Shown here: one piece after another, positions 4,642 through 18,612 of the stretch | How positions within the stretch are numbered: the stretch's first letter is position 1 | Layout of the letters: the number at the start of each line of letters is the position of its first letter | Assembly (NCBI RefSeq): GCF_001613505.1 | Contig: NZ_BDCM01000012.1 | Location: 372,001 to 436,000, forward strand | From: Nocardia mikamii NBRC 108933 | Lineage (GTDB): Bacteria > Actinomycetota > Actinomycetes > Mycobacteriales > Mycobacteriaceae | Reading direction: 5' to 3' | DNA: 64,000 nucleotides | The notes under the pieces: model-generated | Seen by the model: only the letters and a program-made list of their open reading frames with translations | Told to the model about the DNA's origin: nothing | Database searches by the model: none | Position numbers and translations under genes: made by a program

Positions 4642-4777
4642 GATCGTCTCCGCAGCTTCCGTATGAACCATGCCGCCCTGGGTATCCGCGACTCGGAGGC
4701 TCAAACAAGAAATTTCGGTCGAATCCGTCGCGGGCGACGGCGGTGGCATCCGTGCCGCGATGTGCTGTACTTGCCGG

Positions 4778-5755
4778 GTGAGCGAGTCTGGTGAGTCGAC
4801 CGACGTGGTCGACGCGGTGGTGGAAACAACTCTCCTCGGTGGTCCTCGCCGCTACACCCGCGCTCAGGTGGCCGAGCTGTCCGGTGTCTCGGTCGACAAT
4901 GCCCGCAAACTGTGGATCGCCTTGGGGTTCCCGGCCGCGGCGAGCGACGACGAGGCGGCGTTCACCGACGCCGATGTCGCCGCCGTCCGCACCTTCTGCG
5001 CGCTGGGCCCCACCTCGAATGTGAACGAGCAGAACCAGATTGCCGCCGCCCGCACCCTCGGGCAGTCGATGGCGCGACTGGCCGAATGGCAGGCGGACCT
5101 GATCACCCGCGAACTCGGCGCCGGCACCGACGCCGCGGCCACCGCCCACGCCATCGAGGTGCTCACCGATCTGCAGCAGTACGCGTGGCGGCGGCATCTG
5201 GCCGCGGCGCTGAGCCGATCCCTCGAATCCGACGGCGCCGCACGGCAATTACTCGTCGGATTCGCCGATATGGCCGGCTACACCCGGCTGTCGCGGCACC
5301 TGGACCCCGACGAGCTGACCGATCTGCTGGAAGCGTTCGAAACCGCCACCACCGAGGCGATCACCGCCCACGGCGGCTGGGTGATCAAGAACGTGGGCGA
5401 CGAGGTGATGTTCGCCGTCGACGATCCGCACCGGGGCGCGCGCATCGCGCTGGCTCTGCACGTGGCGATCGGCCGGGCGGCGCAGACGATTTCGGAGATG
5501 CCCCAGATCCGGGTGGGCCTCGCCTACGGGCCGGTGCTGACCCGCTTCGGCGACCTCTACGGCACGGTGGTCAACATCGCCGCCCGGCTGACCGGCGTCG
5601 CCCGTCCCGGAACGGTGCTCGTGGACGACGGCGCGGCCGCGGCCCTGGCCGGCGACACCGAATTCTCCCTGCGTCACCTACGCAGCGTGCGCGTCAAGGG
5701 ATTCTCCCGCCTGCGTTCCCATGTGCTGCGGGAGCGACAGCGCAGACAACGCTGA
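4778..5755 (+). CDS. class III adenylate/guanylate cyclase with N-terminal regulatory domain
   Basis: About 325 residues. The N-terminal ~150 residues include an HTH-like YTRAQVAELSGVSVDNARKLW segment and a helical region, as in the autoinhibitory N-domains of mycobacterial Rv1264/Rv2212-type cyclases. The C-terminal catalytic domain keeps the key residues: metal Asp in FADMAGYT (~D164), Lys and Asp in IKNVGDEV (~K204, D208), adenine-type Asp in FGDLYG (~D259), and Asn/Arg in VNIAARL (~N266, R270). It should therefore be an active cytosolic cyclase, with cAMP the likely product. The start is uncertain. GTG at 4778 sits six bases after TGTACT, which would fit a leaderless transcript; ATG at 4760 is the alternative. 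A weak SigF-like GTAT-N15-GGGTAT lies at 4661-4685. It is divergent from sigF. Confidence 0.85.
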   Translation: MSESGESTDVVDAVVETTLLGGPRRYTRAQVAELSGVSVDNARKLWIALGFPAAASDDEAAFTDADVAAVRTFCALGPTSNVNEQNQIAAARTLGQSMARLAEWQADLITRELGAGTDAAATAHAIEVLTDLQQYAWRRHLAAALSRSLESDGAARQLLVGFADMAGYTRLSRHLDPDELTDLLEAFETATTEAITAHGGWVIKNVGDEVMFAVDDPHRGARIALALHVAIGRAAQTISEMPQIRVGLAYGPVLTRFGDLYGTVVNIAARLTGVARPGTVLVDDGAAAALAGDTEFSLRHLRSVRVKGFSRLRSHVLRERQRRQR

Positions 5756-6693: not shown

Positions 6694-7440
6694 TCAGCCG
6701 GCCTCGAAGCGGGTGGCGATATCGGCGGCGGTCACCTTGGCGAGTTCGACGAACAGCGGGAGTCGCTCGGGGATCATCAGCGCCGTGGGCCCGCGCAGTC
6801 CGAGCGCGAAGCGGCAGTCGCCGCCCCGGGTGAGGATCGGCAGGCCGATGGTCCGGAATCCGGGATCCAGTTCCTCGTCGTTGTAGGCGTACCCGCGCGT
6901 GAGCGTGCGATCGAGTTCGGCGCGAAGTTCGGCCGGGGAGGAGACCGACCGGGCGGTGCCCTCGTCGTAGGTGAGGGTGGCCAGGACCTCGTCGGAGGCG
7001 CCGGACCAGGCGAGCAGGGCCTTGCCCAGCGCGCTCGCGTGCAGGGGCAGGCGGACTCCCATCAGCCGATGTCCGTCGGTCTCCCGCCAGCGGCTGGTGC
7101 CGAGCAGGACGGCATGAATGCTGTGGCGGATCGCGACCGACGCGCTCGCGCCCGTGGTGGCCGCGAGCTGTTCCAGGCTCGGCTCGGCGAGGTAGATACG
7201 GTGCTGGCGGTAGGCGATCTGACCGTATTCGGCGAGCGCGCCGCCCATGCGATAGCGGCTCGAGGCCTCGTCCTTCTCCAGGAAGCCCGCCTGCACCAGC
7301 GCGGTGAGCAGGCGGTGAGTGGTGCTCACCGCCAGGCCCTGCTGACGGGCGACTTCCGATACGCCGCGTTCGTCGCCGTCGCGGAAACAGTCGAGGACCG
7401 ACAGCGCGCGGGTGACGGTCTGCACTCCGGAGGCTTCCAC
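6694..7440 (-). CDS. IclR-family transcriptional regulator
   Basis: A 248-residue regulator. An N-terminal winged HTH (VTRALSVLDCFRDG...GVSEVARQQGLAVSTTHRLLTALVQAGFLEK) is followed by the IclR effector domain, including LPLHASALGKALLA and the closing LTRGYAYNDEELDPGFRTIGLPI signature. It is transcribed divergently from the organosulfur operon, with 281 bp between them that hold two perfect dyads. The simplest reading is that it controls that operon and itself in response to a sulfur compound or its breakdown product. The effector is unknown. Confidence 0.9.
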   Translation of the reverse strand: MEASGVQTVTRALSVLDCFRDGDERGVSEVARQQGLAVSTTHRLLTALVQAGFLEKDEASSRYRMGGALAEYGQIAYRQHRIYLAEPSLEQLAATTGASASVAIRHSIHAVLLGTSRWRETDGHRLMGVRLPLHASALGKALLAWSGASDEVLATLTYDEGTARSVSSPAELRAELDRTLTRGYAYNDEELDPGFRTIGLPILTRGGDCRFALGLRGPTALMIPERLPLFVELAKVTAADIATRFEAG

Positions 7441-7502
7441 GCCGGGGACGGTAACACAGGAAGGAGGCTCGCACCGCCTCGTTCATTCCACTATTCGGAA
7501 AG

Positions 7503-7521: not shown

Positions 7522-7639
7522 GATCACGCTGCGCGAAAAGCACGGTCGATCAAGCTGATTGGCCAGTACAGAGGACTCGTGCGCCGGAATACACCCGGAG
7601 CCAATGTTTCGTCAAGCCTTCCGATCCTCGGAAAGCATT

Positions 7640-7721: not shown

Positions 7722-8765
7722 ATGTTCCGCACGCGCAGGCCACACGGTTGGCGACTCGCGCTCGCGCTCGCCCCCGTCGTCGCTCTGGTCGCGGCGTGTG
7801 GCTCCGGATCCGCGACCGAATCCGGCGCCGGATCACAGCTGGTGTTGAAGGTGGCCGATCCGGGCAACGCGGGGCCACTCGCGGTGGCCAAACGGGACGG
7901 CACGTTCGACAAGGCCCTGGCCCCGCTGGGGGCCAAGGTCGAATGGGTCAACACCACACCGGGTTTCAGCTCCATGCTCAAGCTGTTCAACACCAGGCAA
8001 CTCGATATCTCCGGGGCCGCGTTCAGCCCGGTCGTGGGTGCGCTGTCGAAGGATGTCGCGGTCCGCATCGTGGCGGTGCAGGATCCGGCCGGTAAGGACC
8101 AGAGCGGCATCATCGCCACCAAAGAATCGGGCATCCACTCGGTGGCCGAACTGGTCGGCAAGCGCGTCGCGGTGAATCCGGCCGGCAAGGGCGAATACAT
8201 CCTGCTGAAGGCCCTCGCCCAGGCGGGCGTGCCGGCCGACAAGGTGACGCGAGTGCCGTTGCAGCAGAAGGACGCCGCCTCGGCCTTCGCCACCGGCAAG
8301 GTCGACGCCTGGGCCTCGTTCCTGGTGCCCTATCAGGAGGCCAAGGCCAACGGCGGCGTGGAGATCGCGACCGAGCAGAGCATCGGCTCCAAGGACAACA
8401 CGGTGGTGGTCTTCCGCACCGAGATCCTCGACAAGCGCCCGGAGATCGCCGCCAAATACCTGGAGGTGCTGCAGGGGCTGACCGTTGCGCAGCACGACAA
8501 TCCGTCGGCGTTCGAGAACGTCTTCGAACAGACCGGCCCGCGCGCGCTGACCGGCGCCCGCCTCGCCGACGCGATCCGGGTGGACAGCGAAGCCACCGTG
8601 CCGCGCCTGCCGCTGGAATCCGATGCCGCCGACCTCGCCGACGTGGTCGACCTGTTCGCCGGTAACGGCGTGATCAGCCGCAAGATCACCGCCGCCGACA
8701 TCTTCTACGACCTGAAGGCCAAGCTCACCCCCGACCAGCTGGCCGCGCTGAAAACGGGGCGATGA
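7722..8765 (+). CDS. ABC transporter substrate-binding lipoprotein (SsuA/NMT1 type)
   Basis: A 347-residue extracytoplasmic binding protein. Basic start (MFRTRRPHGWR), hydrophobic core and lipobox LVAAC put the lipidated Cys at about 26. The mature part has the two-lobed SsuA/TauA layout: a first segment on gain of substrate (LKVADPGNAGPLAVAKRDGTFDKAL), IGVxV-like KRVAVNPAGKGEYILLKAL, and a VDAWASFLVPY hinge motif. It is the first gene of an operon with its permease, ATPase and sulfur-releasing enzymes, so the cargo is probably an organosulfonate, sulfone or sulfinate. Confidence 0.85.
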   Translation: MFRTRRPHGWRLALALAPVVALVAACGSGSATESGAGSQLVLKVADPGNAGPLAVAKRDGTFDKALAPLGAKVEWVNTTPGFSSMLKLFNTRQLDISGAAFSPVVGALSKDVAVRIVAVQDPAGKDQSGIIATKESGIHSVAELVGKRVAVNPAGKGEYILLKALAQAGVPADKVTRVPLQQKDAASAFATGKVDAWASFLVPYQEAKANGGVEIATEQSIGSKDNTVVVFRTEILDKRPEIAAKYLEVLQGLTVAQHDNPSAFENVFEQTGPRALTGARLADAIRVDSEATVPRLPLESDAADLADVVDLFAGNGVISRKITAADIFYDLKAKLTPDQLAALKTGR

Positions 8766-8766
8766 C

Positions 8767-9606
8767 ATGACCGCCGTCATCGCTGCCCCCGCGTCGACGG
8801 GCCGGCTCGCGCCGCCGCGCAGCCGGGTCGAGAAACGCAGACCCGCATGGCTGTCGGTGCCCCTGCGCTTCCTGCTCCCGGTACTGATCTTCGCCGGCTG
8901 GTGGATCGGGTCGGCCACCGGCGCGCTGTCGCCGGAGGTGCTGGCCGGGCCGCCGAAGGTCTGGTCGGCGTTCACCGAACTGGTGCACAATGGCCAGCTG
9001 GTCGATTTCGCGCTCGCCTCCTTCGTCCGCGCGGGGCTGGGGGTGGGGCTCGGAGTGTCGGCCGGATTGTTCCTCGGCTTGGCGGCCGGATTATCGAGTC
9101 TCGGTGAGGAACTGGTCGATTCGACGATGCAGATCGTGCGCGCCGTCCCCTTCCTCGCGCTGGTGCCGTTGTTCATCGCCTGGTTCGGGATCGACGAGTT
9201 GTACAAGGTGCTGCTCATCGCGGTCGCCACCGTCGCACCCATGTACGCCTACACCTATCTCGGCGTACGCAATGTCGATCGCAAGGTGGTGGAGGCCGCC
9301 CGCGGCTTCGGGCTGACCGGCCCGCGACTGGTGCTCGAGGTGATCCTGCCGGCGGCGCTGCCCGGCATCCTCATGGCGCTGCGGGTCTGCCTGTCCATCA
9401 GCATCACCGGCCTGATCGCCGCCGAACAGGTCGGCACCAGCAAGGGCGTGGGCTACCTGGTCACCCTCGCGCAGGAATACAACCGCACCGACTACATGGT
9501 GCTGTGCGTCGTGCTCTACGCCGTCCTGGGCCTGGTGTTCGACGGCGCGGTGCGGCTGATCGAACGCTTCGCGATGCCGTGGCGCGGACAGGTGGCGATC
9601 CGATGA
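8767..9606 (+). CDS. ABC transporter permease (SsuC type)
   Basis: A 279-residue inner membrane protein with about six hydrophobic segments after a ~30-residue basic cytoplasmic start. The ATPase-contacting EAA loop is visible as EAARGFGLTGPRLVLEVILPAALPGI. BPD_transp_1 family. It starts two bases after the stop of the binding protein gene, and its own stop overlaps the next start (ATGA). It forms the membrane channel of the organosulfur importer. Confidence 0.9.
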   Translation: MTAVIAAPASTGRLAPPRSRVEKRRPAWLSVPLRFLLPVLIFAGWWIGSATGALSPEVLAGPPKVWSAFTELVHNGQLVDFALASFVRAGLGVGLGVSAGLFLGLAAGLSSLGEELVDSTMQIVRAVPFLALVPLFIAWFGIDELYKVLLIAVATVAPMYAYTYLGVRNVDRKVVEAARGFGLTGPRLVLEVILPAALPGILMALRVCLSISITGLIAAEQVGTSKGVGYLVTLAQEYNRTDYMVLCVVLYAVLGLVFDGAVRLIERFAMPWRGQVAIR

Positions 9607-10355
9607 CCGCCGTGGACGAACCGCGCACCGCCGCACCGCTGGCCGTGCAGATCACCGGATTGCGAAAAGCCTTCGGCGACAATGTCGTTCTCGACGGAGT
9701 GGATCTGAGCATCCGCCGCGGTGAGTTCGTCGTCCTGCTCGGGCCCAGCGGCACCGGTAAGACGACGCTGCTGCGACTGCTCACCGGCCTGGAGGTTCCG
9801 GACGCGGGCGACGTGCTGGTTCCGGCCGTCCGCACCACCGTCTACCAGGAGCCCCGGCTCATCCCGTCCAAACGTGTGCTGGCGAATGTCGTTGTCGGGC
9901 AACGCCGTTCCAAGCCGGTGCGGGCGGCGGGCCTGCGCGCCCTCGCCGAGGTCGGACTCGACGAGAAGGCGCGGCAGTGGCCCGCCACCCTGTCCGGCGG
10001 CGAAGCCCAGCGCGCCGCACTCGCGCGCGCACTGGTCCGGGAGCCCGAACTGCTGCTGCTGGACGAGCCGTTCGCCGCGCTGGACGCCCTGACCCGGTTG
10101 CAGATGCAGGACCTCGTCGGCGACCTGGTGGAGCGGCATCGCCCGGCGGTGCTGATGGTCACCCACGACGTGGACGAGGCGGTCCGGCTGGCCGACCGGG
10201 TCCTCGTCCTGAACCGGGGCCGCTTCGCCGTCGACATCGATATCGATCTGCCTCGCCCGCGCGACCGGACCGACCCCGCCGCCCTGCGCTACCAGGCGGC
10301 TCTGCTCGCCGAACTCGGCGTCGGCCACACCACCGACCACCACCGGATTCCTTGA
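9603..10355 (+). CDS. ABC transporter ATP-binding protein (SsuB type)
   Basis: A 250-residue ATPase. Walker A is GPSGTGKTT, the signature is LSGGEAQR, Walker B is LLLLDEPFAALD, and the switch His is in VTHDVDEA. The SsuB/TauB lineage fits its neighbours. The start overlaps the permease stop by four bases, which fixes it. A shortened region between Walker A and the signature gives a compact domain without extra C-terminal regulatory parts. Confidence 0.92.
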   Translation: MTAVDEPRTAAPLAVQITGLRKAFGDNVVLDGVDLSIRRGEFVVLLGPSGTGKTTLLRLLTGLEVPDAGDVLVPAVRTTVYQEPRLIPSKRVLANVVVGQRRSKPVRAAGLRALAEVGLDEKARQWPATLSGGEAQRAALARALVREPELLLLDEPFAALDALTRLQMQDLVGDLVERHRPAVLMVTHDVDEAVRLADRVLVLNRGRFAVDIDIDLPRPRDRTDPAALRYQAALLAELGVGHTTDHHRIP

Positions 10356-10371
10356 ACCCACGGAGCTTTTC

Positions 10372-11397
10372 ATGACCGACACCCTCTGGTACACCCGTTG
10401 CCCCGTCCCGACCGCCAGCGGTCTGGCGCACAGCCTGGGCTGGCTCGACGACGCCGCGCAGCGCGGCGGCCTCACCTTCGGCGTCCTGCAGGACGCCGGA
10501 CCCGAACTGGCCGGATTCCACTTCGACCACGGGCTGGCCGGCCTGGTGCGCGAGGGCGGCAACGTGCCCGCCCTGGCGGCCCGCGCCGCCGGCTCGCCCA
10601 GCCGGCTCATCGGCCTCACCTGGATCGACGAATCGCAGGCCATCCTGGTCGGCCCGGATTCCCCGGTCGCCTCCCCCGCCGACCTGGCCGGTCTGCGCAT
10701 CGGTATTCCGGCCTGGGCACAGGATCAGGCCCGCAGCTTCCCGCGCGCCATGGCGTTGCACGGCTTCGCCAACGCGCTGCGGCTGGGCGGTCTGACCCTC
10801 GCCGACGTCACCGTGGCCGAACTCGCCGTGGAACGAGATCCGCAGGTGCGCACCGATGTTCAGCAGCGCGCTCGCCGCGTCACCTGGGGCGCCGAGGAGT
10901 TGCTGCGCGGCGAGGTGGACGCGATCTACGTCAAGGGCGCCCGGGCCCAGGAGGTCGCCGCCGAGCACGGCCTGCGGGTGGCGGTGGACCTCGACGCCAC
11001 CGACAGCAAGCGGCTGCGCGTCAACAACGGCACCCCGCGCCCCATCACCGTGCATCAGCACCTGCTCGACACCCGGCCCGAGGTGGTGGTCGACTTCCTC
11101 GCACAGAGTCTGCGCGCCGCCGACTGGGCCGGCGACAATCTCGACGGCGTCCGCGCGGTGCTGCAACGCGAAACCCTTTCCGGCCCCGACGGAGTCGTGG
11201 CCGCCTACGGGGAGGACTTCCATCGCAGCCTGCATCCCAGCCTGGACGAAGAACGGCTGGAGTTGCTGGGCGTGCAGAAACAGTTCCTCTACACCCACGG
11301 CTTCCTCGCCACCGACTTCGATCTCGAATCGTGGGTCGCGCCGGAACCCCTGGCCCGGGCACGGGAGCTGGTCGCGGCCGGACGGGCGGCGGCATGA
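10372..11397 (+). CDS. DszB-like desulfinase (periplasmic-binding-protein fold)
   Basis: A 341-residue protein without a signal peptide, resembling DszB (2'-hydroxybiphenyl-2-sulfinate desulfinase), which releases sulfite from an aryl sulfinate. The DszB catalytic set appears to be kept: Cys in YTRCPVP (C10), His in GFHFDHG (H50) and Arg in VREGGNVPAL (R60); as I recall DszB, the His-Arg spacing of 10 matches Cys27/His60/Arg70. The C-terminal AAYGEDFHRSLHPSLDEERLELL and QKQFLYTHGFL also parallel DszB. The starting compound in this organism is not known. GGAG lies six bases before the ATG. It is followed by two flavin monooxygenase genes, as expected for oxidation then desulfination. Confidence 0.7.
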   Translation: MTDTLWYTRCPVPTASGLAHSLGWLDDAAQRGGLTFGVLQDAGPELAGFHFDHGLAGLVREGGNVPALAARAAGSPSRLIGLTWIDESQAILVGPDSPVASPADLAGLRIGIPAWAQDQARSFPRAMALHGFANALRLGGLTLADVTVAELAVERDPQVRTDVQQRARRVTWGAEELLRGEVDAIYVKGARAQEVAAEHGLRVAVDLDATDSKRLRVNNGTPRPITVHQHLLDTRPEVVVDFLAQSLRAADWAGDNLDGVRAVLQRETLSGPDGVVAAYGEDFHRSLHPSLDEERLELLGVQKQFLYTHGFLATDFDLESWVAPEPLARARELVAAGRAAA

Positions 11398-12524
11398 CCG
11401 AATACCTGTGGCGGCTGCCCAGCCGCGGTGACGGCCGCCGGGCACGCCCGGAGCTGCGGCATCGCGGTGGTTTCGGCGCTTCGGTGCCCACCCCGGCGAG
11501 CGGGCACACCGGTAATCGTGTGCCCGATCGCGAACCCACCGATGTGCGGCCCGGCCGCTTCGGCCCCTTCGACGACCTGCACCAGGTGATCGACGCCGCC
11601 GAACTGGCCGGACTCGACGGTGTGCTCGCACCCTACGACCCGCTGGGTGAGGAATCGTGGATCGTCGCCGGCGGTGCCCTGCGCGCCACCCGGCACAGCC
11701 GGGTGATCGTCGAATTCCAGCCCGCCTTCGGCACTCCCGTCTACGCGGCGAAGATGTCGGTCACGTTGCAGCGCCTGTCGGCGGGGCGGCTGGGCTGGCG
11801 ACTGGCGGTCGACACCGACGAGGCGGAGGCGCGCTCGCGCGGCGACCGGGTGTCCGGTGCCGACCGCTACCGGCGCGCCGCGGAATTCCTCACCGTCGCC
11901 CGTGGTGTGTGGAACCGCGAACCGGTGCCGGCGGCCGGGTTCCGGGGCACCGGATTCGATGTCGCGGGCGACTACTACGACGTGATCGACGGCGGTTTCC
12001 GCGGCGTACTGTCGGGGCTGCCCTTCCCGGCCGTGTACCTGTCCGGCACCTCCCCCGAGGCCCTGGACCTGTCGGCGCGGCACGGTGATGTGCACGTGTT
12101 CACCGAATCCCCCGACGGCCCGGGCGAACAACTGGCCGCGTTGCGCGCCCGCACCGGCGAGACCGGTCGTACCGTGCGCGCCGGACTCGAGATCCCGGTC
12201 ATCGCGCGCGAGACCGAGGACGAGGCGTGGGCGCGTGCGGAACGGCAATGGCGTGAGGTGCGCCCGGACGGCCCGGGCGCGCGATCGCTGGCCCTGGGCG
12301 ACGGCCGCTGGGCCGGATTCGACCTGCTCGGCTACCCGCAGGCCATCGGCCTGGTCGGCAGTTACGAACAGGTGGCCCGGCAGCTACAGGTCTACACCGC
12401 AACAGGTTTCGACACCATCGTGCTCTCCGGGCACCCGCACATCGAGGAGGTGCACCGCGCCGGTGAGCATCTGCTGTTCCTGGCCGACCCGGCGGGGCGC
12501 ACTCTGAAGGAGGTCGCGCTGTGA
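11394..12524 (+). CDS. LLM-class flavin-dependent monooxygenase
   Basis: A 376-residue luciferase-like monooxygenase (bacterial luciferase/SsuD superfamily). It has an N-terminal TIM-barrel start after a ~45-residue extension, the LQRLSAGRLGWRLAVDTDEAEARSRGD and ADRYRRAAEFLTVARGVW segments, and the closing VGSYEQVARQLQVYTATGFDTIVLSGHPHIEE. These enzymes use FMNH2 and O2 to cleave or hydroxylate C-S bonds. The GRLGWRLAVDTD region differs from the NIISGG of the next gene, so substrate or role may differ. The start overlaps the previous stop (ATGA). Confidence 0.85.
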   Translation: MTEYLWRLPSRGDGRRARPELRHRGGFGASVPTPASGHTGNRVPDREPTDVRPGRFGPFDDLHQVIDAAELAGLDGVLAPYDPLGEESWIVAGGALRATRHSRVIVEFQPAFGTPVYAAKMSVTLQRLSAGRLGWRLAVDTDEAEARSRGDRVSGADRYRRAAEFLTVARGVWNREPVPAAGFRGTGFDVAGDYYDVIDGGFRGVLSGLPFPAVYLSGTSPEALDLSARHGDVHVFTESPDGPGEQLAALRARTGETGRTVRAGLEIPVIARETEDEAWARAERQWREVRPDGPGARSLALGDGRWAGFDLLGYPQAIGLVGSYEQVARQLQVYTATGFDTIVLSGHPHIEEVHRAGEHLLFLADPAGRTLKEVAL

Positions 12525-13690
12525 CGATCGACATCTACTGGCGCATCGGCATGGAGGGCGACCACGCCTCGCTGCGCACGCCGCGCCGCTACAACCGCGG
12601 CAACGCCGGCGGCTACGGTCCGGGCAATATCGCCCCGGCCGTGCGCGGCGGTGAACTCGACGGGTACAGCTATATCGATCACGTCGCCGCCGTCGCCCGA
12701 GCGAGCGAATCCGCGGGATTCCTGGGCGGGCTGCTGCCCTCGTTCCCGGTCACCGAGGATCCGTGGGCCTTCGCCGCCGCGCTGGCCCGCGAAACCACCA
12801 CCTACCGCTTCATGGTCGCCTTCCAGCCCGGCTTCCTGCACCCGGTGCAGGCCGCGCGCATGTCGGCAAGTCTGCAGCGCGCCACCGGCGGGCGGCTCGT
12901 CTACAACATCATCAGCGGTGGCGGCGGCCCGGCCCAATTGTGGTGGGGCGACAAGGTTTCCCACGACGACCGCTACGCCCGCACCAGCGAATTCCTCGAC
13001 GTGCTGCGCGGGGTGTGGGACGGGCGGCCGTACACCCACGACGGCCGGTTCTTCCACACCGAGGCGGCCGCCCTGCCGCCGGGCCTGGCCGGGCAACCGT
13101 TCCCGGAGGTGTACTTCTCCGGGTCCTCCGGCGCCGCGGTGCAGGCCGCCGGACGCCACGCCGACTACTACCTGTCCTGGCTGGAGCCCTTCGCCGACCT
13201 GCGCGCCAAATTCGACGGCGTGCGCGCGCACGCCGAAAAGATCGGCCGCACACCGAAATTCGCGGTCCGCATCGACATCCTGGCCCGGCACACCGAAGAG
13301 GCCGCGTGGGACGAGATCCGCAAGGGCTGGGCCTTCGTCGACCGCGAGGCCGCCAACCGCGCCGCCCAGGGCGATTCGGTGGGAGCGGCACGGATCAAGG
13401 GCTGGGTCCCCGAAACCATCACCGGCTACCGGGACCTGGAGGTGCAACCCAACGTCTGGTGCGGTTTCAGCCTGATCCGCGGCGGACCCGCCTTCGGGCT
13501 GGTCGGCAGCTACGAACAGGTCGCCCAGCGCCTCGACGAGCTGATCGACCTCGGTGTAGACGCCTTCATCCTCGCCGGAAACCCGCATCTGGAGGAGGCC
13601 TACCGGGTCGGGGAAGAAGTGCTGCCGCTGCTCGGCCGCTCCCGCCTGACCGCACCCGACACCACCCCCGCACTGACGCACGCCCACTAG
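12521..13690 (+). CDS. SsuD-like FMNH2-dependent monooxygenase
   Basis: A 389-residue LLM monooxygenase close to alkanesulfonate monooxygenase. Characteristic parts are DPWAFAAALARETTTYRFMVAFQPGF, GGRLVYNIISGGGG, DDRYARTSEFLDVLRGVW, YFSGSSGAAVQAAGRHADYYLSW and VGSYEQVAQRLDELIDLGVDAFILAGNPHLEE. It would desulfonate an imported sulfonate to an aldehyde and sulfite with reduced flavin supplied by a separate reductase, which is not encoded in this operon. The GTG start overlaps the previous stop (GTGA). Confidence 0.88.
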   Translation: MTIDIYWRIGMEGDHASLRTPRRYNRGNAGGYGPGNIAPAVRGGELDGYSYIDHVAAVARASESAGFLGGLLPSFPVTEDPWAFAAALARETTTYRFMVAFQPGFLHPVQAARMSASLQRATGGRLVYNIISGGGGPAQLWWGDKVSHDDRYARTSEFLDVLRGVWDGRPYTHDGRFFHTEAAALPPGLAGQPFPEVYFSGSSGAAVQAAGRHADYYLSWLEPFADLRAKFDGVRAHAEKIGRTPKFAVRIDILARHTEEAAWDEIRKGWAFVDREAANRAAQGDSVGAARIKGWVPETITGYRDLEVQPNVWCGFSLIRGGPAFGLVGSYEQVAQRLDELIDLGVDAFILAGNPHLEEAYRVGEEVLPLLGRSRLTAPDTTPALTHAH

Positions 13691-13697
13691 GAGAATC

Positions 13698-14405
13698 GTG
13701 ACCACCACCGAAATCCGGCTCGACGACACCGTCACCGAATTCGTCGCCGCCGCCACCCGCGACGCCGAGAAGGCGTTCCGGGTGTTCCGCGAAACCGGCA
13801 CCGTCGCAGGCAACGGGACCGTCAATTTCGTCGAACGCGTACCCGGCCACGACATCGCGGTAGCGCTCAACGAGCCCGGCCCCTGGGCCGACGACCGCAC
13901 CGTGCGACCCGTGGTCGCCGATTTCGACGGAGAAGTACTGTCCGGCACCGGTTCCGCCGGCTTCGTCACCGGTTACGCCGCGGTGTTCCGCGCGCATCCG
14001 GAGATCACTTCCGTGGTGCACGTGCACAGCCCCTGGCTGGGTGGCTGGGCGCAGACCCACCGCGTCTTCCCGATCCGCTACGCCGCCGTGCAGCGGCTGA
14101 CCCTGTCGCGGGAGATCCCGCCGCACATCGATCGAAGCATCGGCGCGGGCGACTTCATCCTCGACCGGCTGTCCCGCGACCCCGACCTCATCGCGATCTT
14201 CGAGGCCAACGGCGGCGCGAACGTCATCGGGCGTGCCGGACTGCTGGAGCTGGCGAAGCTGGTCGTGTTGCTCGAAGAGGGCGCACAGTATCAGGCGATC
14301 GCCGAAACCCTCGGCGGCTCCGTCGAATTCGACAAGTCCAATCTCGCGGTGCAGTGGGGGCGCACCGGGCTCGCGGACGAGGCCCGCCGCCGCGGGCTGA
14401 TCTGA
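13698..14405 (+). CDS. class II aldolase/adducin family protein
   Basis: A 235-residue protein of the class II aldolase/adducin fold. The metal-binding HVHSPW motif is near residue 115, with further parts such as FVTGYAAVFRAHPEITSVVHVH and LIAIFEANGGANVIG. These enzymes act as zinc aldolases or epimerases on phosphorylated or oxidised sugars and related aldehydes. In this operon it may process the aldehyde left after C-S cleavage, but that is inference from position. A GTG start with AGGAG five bases upstream, eight bases after the previous stop. Confidence 0.85.
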   Translation: MTTTEIRLDDTVTEFVAAATRDAEKAFRVFRETGTVAGNGTVNFVERVPGHDIAVALNEPGPWADDRTVRPVVADFDGEVLSGTGSAGFVTGYAAVFRAHPEITSVVHVHSPWLGGWAQTHRVFPIRYAAVQRLTLSREIPPHIDRSIGAGDFILDRLSRDPDLIAIFEANGGANVIGRAGLLELAKLVVLLEEGAQYQAIAETLGGSVEFDKSNLAVQWGRTGLADEARRRGLI

Positions 14406-14440
14406 CCCCTACTTCCGTACCTTCTCGAGGAGCAATCCCC

Positions 14441-15388
14441 ATGACCGTTCGTGTCGGCTACTTCCCGCACAACAATTCGCTGTTCGTCCTGCGTCACCGC
14501 GGCATCCTGGAACGCGCACTGCCCGACGTGGAGTGGGTGGACCTGCGGGCCCTTCCGCAGCCGCCCCGCGCCGACGTGAAAACCGCACTGCCGTCGCTGC
14601 ATTCGGACTACCTGTTCGACGCGACCGGCTACGACTTCATCGGCACCGGCTTCACCCCGCCGATCACCGCGCTCGGCAACGACCGCGACATCGTCTACGT
14701 CGGCATCTCCGGACCGCGCATCGAGAACGGCCGGCTGGTCACCAAGGCGGGCAACGGTATCGAGTCGGTGGCCGATCTGGCGGGTAAGCGGGTCGGCATC
14801 GCGCACGGTTCCTGGCAGACCACGCTGCTGCTGTTCGCCTTGGAGCGGTCGGGTCTGGGCTGGGGCGACATCGAGCCGGTCGACACCGACGTGCACGACG
14901 GCGGCGCCCTGCTGCTCGACGGCAGCCTCGACGCCTGGGTCGGCGCCTACCCCGGCCTGGCCGCCGTGGAGGCCGCCACCCCGTTGCACACCCTCGTCGA
15001 CACCGAATCCGTCTTCAGCCACCCCTCGCTGTGGTTCACCCGCCGCGACTTCGCCGAAGCCCACCGCCCGGCGCTGGAAGCGATCATCACCGCCTTGCGG
15101 GAGTCCGACGCCTGGATCGCCGAAAACCCACGCGCCGCAGCGCAATACTTCGTCGACGATATCCTCGCCCGCGGCGGCACCGCCGACCTCGACACCTGGG
15201 AAGCCGCGCTGCGCGGCCGCCCGTTCGGCCTCGGCCCGGTCACCGAGCAATTCCTCGACGAACAACAGCACGCCGCCGACCTGCTGCACGCAAACGGCCT
15301 GCTACCCAAGAAGATCCGGGTCCGCGACGCGGTCGATCCCGCGATCACGGAGTTCCTCACCGCACCCGAACCGGCACCGGCCGGCTGA
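14441..15388 (+). CDS. substrate-binding-protein-like protein without signal peptide
   Basis: A 315-residue NMT1/SsuA-like protein: RVGYFPHNNSLFVLRHRGILERAL at the start, ESVADLAGKRVGIAHGSWQTTLLLFALERSGLGWGDI in the first lobe, and LLLDGSLDAWVGAYPGLAAVE at the hinge. The chain begins directly with the first beta strand; there is no signal peptide or lipobox at the ATG (14441), which has GAGGAG eight bases upstream. It may be a cytosolic binding protein or, like DszB, an enzyme built on this fold. A DszB-type CPVP motif is absent (it has no Cys near the start). Last gene of the organosulfur operon. Confidence 0.75.
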   Translation: MTVRVGYFPHNNSLFVLRHRGILERALPDVEWVDLRALPQPPRADVKTALPSLHSDYLFDATGYDFIGTGFTPPITALGNDRDIVYVGISGPRIENGRLVTKAGNGIESVADLAGKRVGIAHGSWQTTLLLFALERSGLGWGDIEPVDTDVHDGGALLLDGSLDAWVGAYPGLAAVEAATPLHTLVDTESVFSHPSLWFTRRDFAEAHRPALEAIITALRESDAWIAENPRAAAQYFVDDILARGGTADLDTWEAALRGRPFGLGPVTEQFLDEQQHAADLLHANGLLPKKIRVRDAVDPAITEFLTAPEPAPAG

Positions 15389-17412: not shown

Positions 17413-18612
17413 TCAGCGGGTGGCGATGATGGCCGAACCGTGGCCGAACAGGCCCTGGTTCACGGCGATGCCGGCGCGGGCGTTCTCCACCTGCCGCCCG
17501 TCGGCTCGGCCGCGCAACTGCCAGGTGAGTTCGCAGATCTGGGCGATCGCCTGCGCCGGGATGGCCTCACCGAAGCAGGCCAGGCCACCGCTGGGATTCA
17601 CCGGCACGCGTCCTCCCAAAGTGGTTGCGCCGCTGCGCAACAGCTCCTCGGCGCCGCCGATCTCGCACAACCCGATATCTTCGTACCAGTCCAGCTCCAG
17701 CGCGGTGGACAGGTCGTAGACCTCCGCGAAGGACAGGTCGGCGGGACCGAGTCCGGCCTCCTCGTAGGCGGCATCCGCGATCGCGGACCGGAACGACCGC
17801 GAGGGCACATCGAAGGCCACCGCGGAGTCGGTCGCGAAATCCGGCAGATCGAGAACGGTTTTCGGGAAGGTCGGCGTGACCGTCGACAGCGCCCGGATGC
17901 GGACCGGATCGGCGATGCCGTGGCGGCGGGCGTAGTCCATCGACGTCAGCACCAGCGCGGCGCCGCCGTCACTGGTGGCGCAGATGTCGAGCAGCCGCAA
18001 CGGATCGGAGACGATCGCCGAGGCCGCGACCTCCTCGGCCGCCACCTCTTTGCGGTAGCGCGCGTAAGGGTTGTTCAGGCCGTGCTTGGCGTTCTTCACC
18101 TTGACGGCGGCGAAATCGTCGAGCGTGGCCCCGTGCAGCGCCATCCGCCGGCGCGCGTACAAGGCGAAGTAGATGGGGTTGGTGGCGCCGAGCAGATGGA
18201 AACGCAACCAGTCCGGATCGTCGCGGCGTTCGCCGCCGACGGGCTGGAAGAATCCCTTCGGGGCGGCATCCGCACCGACCACGAGCGCCACATCGGTCAG
18301 CCCGGCCAGGATCTGGGCCCGCGCGTTGGCGATGGCCTGGGCGCCGGAGGCGCAGGCGGCGTAACTGCTCGAGATCCGGGCGCCGGACCAGCCGAGCGCC
18401 TGCGCGAACGTCGCACCCGACACGAATCCGGGGTAGCCGTTGCGGATCGTGTCCGCGCCGGCGATGTAGCCGACGTCGCGGTGGTCGACTCCGGCATCGG
18501 CCAGCGCCGCCCGCGCGGCCACCAAGCCGTATTCGACGAAATTGCGTCCCCATTTGCCCCACTGGTGCATACCCGCACCGAGGACGGCGATATCGCGATC
18601 GTTGTCAGGCAT
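17413..18612 (-). CDS. thiolase-fold lipid-transfer (SCP-x type) protein
   Basis: A 399-residue thiolase-like enzyme of the non-decarboxylating lipid-transfer group. The nucleophilic Cys is in SSSYAACASGAQAIANA, DICATSDGGAALVLTS lies mid-chain, and NPSGGLACFGEAIPAQ and NQGLFGHGSAIIATR provide the C-terminal His/Cys region. Such proteins paired with a DUF35 partner act as acyl-CoA thiolases or retro-aldolases, often in sterol or fatty-acid side-chain breakdown. It overlaps the DUF35 gene by eight bases, so the two form one unit, behind a KstR-like operator. Confidence 0.85.
   Translation of the reverse strand: MPDNDRDIAVLGAGMHQWGKWGRNFVEYGLVAARAALADAGVDHRDVGYIAGADTIRNGYPGFVSGATFAQALGWSGARISSSYAACASGAQAIANARAQILAGLTDVALVVGADAAPKGFFQPVGGERRDDPDWLRFHLLGATNPIYFALYARRRMALHGATLDDFAAVKVKNAKHGLNNPYARYRKEVAAEEVAASAIVSDPLRLLDICATSDGGAALVLTSMDYARRHGIADPVRIRALSTVTPTFPKTVLDLPDFATDSAVAFDVPSRSFRSAIADAAYEEAGLGPADLSFAEVYDLSTALELDWYEDIGLCEIGGAEELLRSGATTLGGRVPVNPSGGLACFGEAIPAQAIAQICELTWQLRGRADGRQVENARAGIAVNQGLFGHGSAIIATR

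Follow-up and report, generated by a model that had tools for sequence, protein, structure and literature searches.

Eight collinear genes on the plus strand at positions 7722-15388 of the window (the whole stretch of 64,000 nucleotides analysed from Nocardia mikamii NBRC 108933) make up what is probably an operon for scavenging sulfur, of the type described as bds in Gordonia terrae and acting by the mechanism proposed below. The encoded products are, in order, a lipoprotein SBP, a permease, an ATPase, a DszB-like protein, two LLM flavoproteins (LLM1 and LLM2), an aldolase-fold protein and an SsuA-like protein, and all genes were found at the positions given in an earlier note on this DNA. 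The unit measures 7.7 kb as opposed to the "nine-kilobase-scale" arrangement of that note, and the 4-bp overlaps it attributed to most junctions were present at only three of seven, including that between the start of P0003 and the end of permease P0002; spacings at the other junctions were +1, +16, +7 and +35 bp. The features of the locus are as follows.

6694..7440, minus strand: divergent IclR-family regulator (PF09339 and PF01614)
7486..7502, no strand: putative operator copy 1, TTCCACTATTCGGAAAG, a TTCC-N7-GGAA palindrome
7619..7635, no strand: putative operator copy 2, TTCCGATCCTCGGAAAG, a TTCC-N7-GGAA palindrome
7722..8765, plus strand: SsuA-type substrate-binding lipoprotein P0001 (PF09084, TIGR01728)
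8767..9606, plus strand: SsuC-type permease P0002 (PF00528; best NCBIfam match SsuC, 204 bits)
9603..10355, plus strand: SsuB-type ATPase P0003 (PF00005; best NCBIfam match aliphatic sulfonate ATP-binding protein, 232 bits)
10372..11397, plus strand: predicted DszB-like desulfinase P0004 (PDB sequence matches, predicted fold, C10/H50/R60, tree)
11394..12524, plus strand: LLM1, P0005, luciferase-like monooxygenase without the sulfonate-binding motif (PF00296)
12521..13690, plus strand: LLM2, P0006, alkanesulfonate-monooxygenase-type (PF00296; 7jv3, MsuD/SsuD family, E 5e-65)
13698..14405, plus strand: class II aldolase-fold protein P0007, with HxH but without the third His (PF00596, E 8e-9)
14441..15388, plus strand: cytosolic SsuA-like protein P0008 (TIGR01728; SsuA 2x26, E 5e-22)

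The identity of P0004 was indicated by PDB sequence matches, which were to DszB entries only (E 5e-24), and by an alignment in which C10, H50 and R60 corresponded to DszB C27, H60 and R70, with R60-E-G-G in P0004 where DszB has R70-X-G-G. Of 100 homologous ORFs that could be aligned across these positions, 93 retained the three residues, and the Cys, His and Arg-X-Gly-Gly were almost invariant from Nocardia through Nostoc and methanotrophs. The hydroxyl of DszB S25 was likewise retained, this position being Thr in 35 of 37 sequences. The predicted model of P0004 (pLDDT 89) matched DszB 2de3 with a Z score of 33.1 (315 residues, 2.6 A) as compared to 25.4 for SsuA. In the tree, DszB and a 67% identical relative branched together as sisters of the P0004 family (99/96 and 98/94), placing P0004 outside the clade of authentic DszB. 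The binding proteins included in this tree had none of Cys, His and Arg. P0004 has no signal peptide. Thus, alignment, fold match and tree agree with the DszB-like assignment and C10/H50/R60 pattern of the earlier note, the correspondence of residues with DszB being by sequence alignment and fold match rather than by measured coordinates, and P0004 did not group with plain SsuA-type proteins. The conclusion that P0004 is a DszB-like protein with its catalytic residues kept is supported, and a plain SsuA-type binding protein is ruled out by the residues, the tree and the missing signal peptide. This result corrects the common annotation of such proteins as ABC transporter substrate-binding.

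P0004 nevertheless differs from DszB in that it is approximately 30% identical over the structural alignment, belongs to a sister clade rather than one nested in DszB and is encoded without an adjoining dszA or dszC. Of the aromatic pocket residues of DszB, F61 is kept, W155 is opposite a gap and F203 lies opposite R166 in a weakly aligned region; the position of W225 is an invariant Lys (Lys188). The loss of the DszB pocket makes it likely that the substrate is one other than dibenzothiophene, as the earlier note had suggested.

The two LLM proteins differed in the sulfonate-binding motif, which in MsuD consists of W195, R225 and R296 (PMC8234197). LLM2 retains this motif (W220 in 69/69, R250 in 69/69 and R320 in 68/69 loci) as well as H333, and departs from SsuD/MsuD in having D for H228, N for Y331 and T for C54. 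In contrast, LLM1 has lost the whole motif, with F236, E266 and G313 where SsuD has W196/R226/R297. The description of both proteins as SsuD-type therefore applies only to LLM2, and their interpretation as a pair of alkanesulfonate monooxygenases fails for LLM1. No DszC-type (acyl-CoA dehydrogenase-like) or DszA-type gene was found among the eight from profile matches. The class II aldolase of the earlier note was recognizable by fold but not by its third metal ligand. As the earlier note had stated, a flavin reductase gene was not present among the eight operon genes; PF01613 matches numbered nine elsewhere in the genome, the nearest lying on the same contig at a distance of approximately 93 kb.

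The predicted fold of P0007 (Z 18.6 over 195 residues; approximately 18 to fuculose aldolase and AraD) and its HxH are shared with fuculose aldolase, AraD and pyruvic oxime dioxygenase. H108, H110, E169 and N171 are invariant. Unlike class II aldolases, P0007 has no third metal His, its replacement lying inside an invariant E-[AS]-N-G-G motif (here E-A-N-G-G), and FucA E73 is not kept, the third-His comparison being with the FucA sequence. P0007 was rejected as a canonical class II aldolase by the loss of this ligand. The last gene product, P0008, the SBP-like protein of the earlier note, is SsuA-like and has no signal peptide; the same was noted for approximately 60 homologs, many with in-frame stops close upstream. 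P0001, by comparison, has a signal peptide with the lipobox LVAAC, identified from the sequence.

The IclR gene at 6694-7440, omitted from the earlier note, belongs to the unit. Such a gene is divergent in most actinobacterial loci, and one occurs in a Streptomyces plasmid locus as well. Both palindromes sit between this gene and the operon. At least two copies were noted in 45 of 51 intergenic regions as opposed to none in 200 shuffles, and the whole genome contained six sites compared with zero for the reversed control. Scans for sigma-70 promoters and terminators gave no signal above chance.

A search for the same gene order in other genomes recovered it in dozens, indicating that the operon is not a chance arrangement. 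The eight-gene order is conserved in Nocardia, Rhodococcus, Prescottella, Williamsia and Amycolatopsis, and near relatives without the aldolase gene occur in Pseudonocardia, Actinokineospora and Streptosporangium. A close homolog of P0004 was present in 59 of the 150 Nocardia species. DszB-like genes accompany other oxygenases in rhizobia, Sphingobium and Burkholderia. Viral contigs gave 12 pattern matches, not one of which encoded a relative, and a virus-borne copy was accordingly rejected.

The type of operon is already known, and the Nocardia locus adds another member. In a 2013 report on Gordonia terrae C-6, a collinear operon is described in the bdsABC region (GTC6_01620-01585, KC831580) with the order SBP, permease, ATPase, desulfinase, FMNH2 monooxygenase, alkanesulfonate monooxygenase, hypothetical protein and SBP (PMC3868597). 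The Nocardia order matches these published locus tags for all eight genes, although the species differs and the aldolase-fold gene is listed there only as hypothetical. From this gene order and annotation, the two operons would appear to be the same. Primers used for cloning from G. terrae C-6 had no convincing match in the genomes searched, which included 59 of one related genus. According to the same text, each of the eight genes was 29-54 fold up on benzothiophene versus sulfate by RT-qPCR, and bdsABC extracts produced o-hydroxystyrene from benzothiophene, a reaction that needed DszD, NADH and FMN; the activity is from a single report on crude extracts (PMC3868597). Since many other ssu/tau genes of this strain were also raised by benzothiophene (PMC3868597), the induction may reflect general sulfur starvation. 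In Rhodococcus qingshengii IGTS8, growth on dibenzothiophene gave higher levels of the products of peg4799, 4801, 4802, 4804 and 4806 than did growth on sulfate, and their annotations and numbering fit the order SsuA, SsuB, DszB, SsuD, SsuA, with three of the eight gene products absent from the proteome table and five detected; the authors' assignment of the locus goes no further than sulfur acquisition or alkanesulfonate transport (PMC8557817). Thus, the novelty implied by the earlier note is unsupported, the G. terrae C-6 operon having already been described (PMC3868597) and the IGTS8 locus being visible in a proteome (PMC8557817). A literature search for an operon pairing a DszB-like protein with an aldolase found no report; the bds and IGTS8 papers surfaced from broader searches.

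Other explanations of the locus were weighed against this evidence. True benzothiophene desulfurization, with LLM1 and LLM2 in the roles of DszC and DszA and the ring-opened product desulfinated by P0004, agrees with the published bdsABC result (PMC3868597) but is considered unlikely in view of the absence of a DszC-type gene, the loss of DszB W155 and F203 and the invariant Lys for W225. Moreover, an SsuABC-type importer fits anionic sulfonates better than a neutral thiophene, P0004 homologs are more widespread in Nocardia than expected for a fuel-compound trait, and IGTS8, despite its matching locus, is described as unable to desulfurize benzothiophene (PMC3868597). Similarly doubtful is an ordinary alkanesulfonate (ssu) operon with accessory DszB-like and aldolase-fold genes. 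The importer and LLM2 are indeed Ssu-like and several relatives are without the aldolase-fold gene, whereas actinobacterial loci throughout retain the DszB-like gene together with those for LLM1 and the cytosolic SsuA-like protein, and the pairing of DszB-like genes with other oxygenases extends beyond them.

It is quite improbable that P0004 is a cytosolic SsuA-fold protein for ligand binding or sensing that lost or never had catalysis, with LLM2 alone freeing sulfite. Its fold is common to binding proteins, and non-catalytic forms do exist, since the Cys and His are lost (S/I) in certain paralogs from Burkholderia and Paraburkholderia that are still retained beside transport genes. Against this stand the near invariance of Cys, His and Arg-X-Gly-Gly in the family, the binding proteins of the tree without these residues and the missing signal peptide.

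In the preferred reading of a bds-type sulfur-scavenging operon, the SBP/permease/ATPase importer would take up an organosulfur compound of anionic or polar character. The LLM flavoproteins, with FMNH2 presumably supplied in trans by a reductase encoded elsewhere, would then oxygenate the carbon adjoining sulfur and open the C-S bond, a step order that is conjectural, and LLM2 may also free sulfite straight from a sulfonate. P0004, acting on a putative sulfinate, would protonate the sulfinate-bearing carbon and free sulfite for assimilation, with Cys10 as probable proton donor, a His50-Thr8 dyad that would stabilise Cys10 and Arg60-X-Gly-Gly that would hold the sulfinate. The divergent IclR protein would control the operon via predicted binding to the two palindromic operators.

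More tentatively, P0004 may found a desulfinase family of wide distribution, with members in Actinomycetota, methanotrophs, Burkholderia, rhizobia and Nostoc. Its substrates would be natural sulfinates of polar or anionic character instead of biphenyls, and Lys188 would replace DszB Trp225. P0007 could then have an HxH...E centre and act as a metal enzyme, with P0008 as a second enzyme on a binding-protein fold, all forming a widespread aerobic route by which a natural organosulfur compound yields sulfite. In fuel biodesulfurization, the rate-limiting enzyme is DszB, which has, to our knowledge, few characterised relatives; the P0004 family provides many sequences for enzyme discovery. The occurrence of a conserved sulfur-regulated operon with a DszB-like enzyme across many soil actinobacteria points to desulfination as a general route for gaining sulfur rather than a rarity of oil degraders.

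The organosulfur operon at 7722-15388 is real, conserved and of the bds type, i.e., that of the bdsABC operon region of Gordonia terrae C-6. Within the window (contig 12, 372001-436000, of a 7.56-Mb genome), all eight genes were found with the content and coordinates that the earlier note had given. The span measured was 7.7 kb rather than of nine-kilobase scale, and only three of the seven gene junctions (+1, -4, +16, -4, -4, +7 and +35 bp) were 4-bp overlaps, which had been described as predominant. The reported lack of a flavin reductase gene in the operon was borne out; nine candidate flavin reductases were noted elsewhere in the genome. Outside the operon, 4670-5755 (+), lying two genes upstream of IclR, has a product bearing an adenylate/guanylate cyclase catalytic domain, and 17413-18612 (-) encodes a thiolase-like lipid-transfer protein that well exceeds the NCBIfam PRK06059 cut-off.

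The relationship of P0004 (the DszB-like protein) to the desulfinase DszB was evident from sequence, fold and phylogeny. In a search of all PDB sequences the sole matches were to DszB (E 5e-24), and the AlphaFold model (pLDDT 89) was nearest in fold to DszB (Z 33.1 and 32.4; best SsuA, Z 25.4). Alignment placed the proposed catalytic C10, H50 and R60 on DszB C27, H60 and R70; the DszB sequence that was aligned agreed with entry 2de2 across all 365 residues. In a tree, P0004, its relatives and DszB formed one clade (100/99) separate from SsuA, P0001 (the SsuA-type lipoprotein) and P0008 (the last, SsuA-like protein), with true DszB as sister branch, while the exact placing of some distant rows is unsure because they are long-branched. 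Cys, His and Arg were retained in 93 of 100 homologous ORFs alignable at those positions; six Burkholderia or Paraburkholderia paralogs carried Ser for Cys and Ile for His, and one Novosphingobium paralog had neither catalytic Cys nor His. Ser/Ile paralogs from Burkholderia and Paraburkholderia (in local coordinates of relatives' loci, L109:1879-3090 (-), L111:1950-3296 (-), L112:7590-9035, L113:2858-4249 and L115:7293-9035) have no evident signal peptide, adjoin transport genes and may be likened to natural counterparts of the inactive DszB C27S mutant.

By computation, the ring carbon in DszB receives its proton from Cys27, which is stabilised by H60-S25 (PMC6100217). In the P0004 family the S25 position is Thr in 35 of 37 members, F61 and G73 are conserved in the alignment, W155 lies opposite a gap, F203 aligns with Arg166 and W225 with an invariant Lys188. 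These residues favour DszB-like chemistry on a substrate that would be smaller or more polar, a lead short of proof because the alignment is weak around 148-160 and 198-205.

The two luciferase-like monooxygenases differed at the sulfonate-binding motif known from the MsuD structure (W195, R225, R296 and residue 299; PMC8234197). Thus, the description of both as SsuD-type held for LLM2, in which W220, R250 and R320 were present almost without exception (69 loci), making it a good candidate sulfonate monooxygenase, but not for LLM1, which has F236, E266 and G313 and whose substrate must therefore differ (e.g., a sulfone or another oxidation step). P0007 (the aldolase-fold protein) folds like fuculose aldolase and ribulose-phosphate epimerase (Z about 18), although among PDB sequences only pyruvic oxime dioxygenases matched (E about 4e-4). 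Across 13 members, drawn from Actinomycetota and Pseudomonadota, H108, H110, H121, E169, N171 and G172-G173 did not vary, but the aldolases' third His was absent; an HxH...E metal centre may be possible. The gene is not required in every such system, since several actinobacterial relatives lack it. P0008 resembles SsuA by sequence, but the N-termini of about 60 homologs showed no signal peptide, which indicates a cytosolic protein; in several, a stop lies four to thirteen codons 5' of the start. An insert, P-x-[LV]-H-[SG]-D-x-L-F, is common to these homologs and missing from E. coli SsuA. P0008 thus resembles DszB in being cytosolic on a binding-protein fold but lacks the C/H/R residues.

The 281-bp gap between the IclR gene and the operon contains two palindrome copies:

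6694-7440, pointing away from the operon, IclR-family gene
7486-7502, palindrome copy 1, TTCCACTATTCGGAAAG
7619-7635, palindrome copy 2, TTCCGATCCTCGGAAAG

At least two copies of TTCC-N7-GGAA occurred in 45 of 51 intergenic regions and one in the remaining six, whereas no region in any shuffled set had two. Genome-wide, TTCCNNTNNNNGGAAAG was found six times, twice in this gap, against zero for the reversed control. The palindromes are putative operators to which the IclR protein would bind. The divergent position of IclR is kept in most actinobacterial relatives; in Actinokineospora (L094:11079-11867) the gene lies within the operon and on its strand, between LLM2 and the last gene, where other genomes have the aldolase-fold gene. 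On a Streptomyces plasmid, IclR accompanies a DszB-like gene, the importer and one LLM.

The closest named relatives of P0004 (96-97% protein identity) were from Nocardia cerradoensis, N. kruczakiae and N. aobensis, which places the genome in Nocardia. A close homolog (at least 74% identity) was present in 59 of 150 Nocardia species and one at 52-54% identity in six more. Among 78 loci compared, most actinobacterial ones had all of the genes in unchanged order; the operon is also present in named Rhodococcus species, and eleven further genomes of the same family show a matching one. In Prescottella defluvii CP121458 (L102:7818-9027) three genes (DszB-like, ATPase and last SBP-like) are broken across two frames apiece, probably through sequencing errors. 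Outside Actinomycetota the DszB-like gene has different surroundings. Methanotroph genomes had tandem DszB-like copies with an aldolase-fold gene. In Methylococcaceae and Myxococcaceae loci L098, L099 and L101, two to four different DszB-like genes run consecutively before an LLM gene, L098 having the aldolase-fold gene as well. Sphingobium combines DszB-like, SsuD-type and aldolase-fold genes, and Sinorhizobium meliloti pSymA combines DszB-like, acyl-CoA dehydrogenase-like and NtaA/DmoA-type monooxygenase genes, a make-up recalling the DszB/DszC/DszA trio (dszABC). Two DszB-like genes of pSymA (L119:9974-17412) are annotated as substrate-binding proteins.

In the C-6 paper of Wang et al. 2013 (PMC3868597), GTC6_01620 to GTC6_01585 have exactly the order of the Nocardia operon; gene order and annotation suggest orthology. 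According to the same paper, all eight C-6 genes were up on benzothiophene versus sulfate, with RT-qPCR giving 29-54 fold and RNA-seq 92-188 fold, and extracts of E. coli with bdsABC converted benzothiophene to o-hydroxystyrene given added DszD, NADH and FMN. In R. qingshengii IGTS8, products of peg4799, 4801, 4802 (annotated as DszB), 4804 and 4806 were higher on dibenzothiophene than on sulfate, and peg4799-4806 are separate from the plasmid dszABC genes (PMC8557817). The natural substrate may be something other than benzothiophene, because IGTS8 is said in the C-6 paper not to be capable of desulfurizing it (PMC3868597) and many other sulfonate genes are co-induced.

New in this analysis are IclR with its putative operator pair and the observations that LLM1 has lost the sulfonate motif, that the metal site is altered in the aldolase-fold protein, that the last protein is cytosolic and that DszB-like proteins form a broad family. 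Most likely, the operon serves uptake of a polar organosulfur compound and its C-S cleavage under sulfur limitation, with P0004 as desulfinase.
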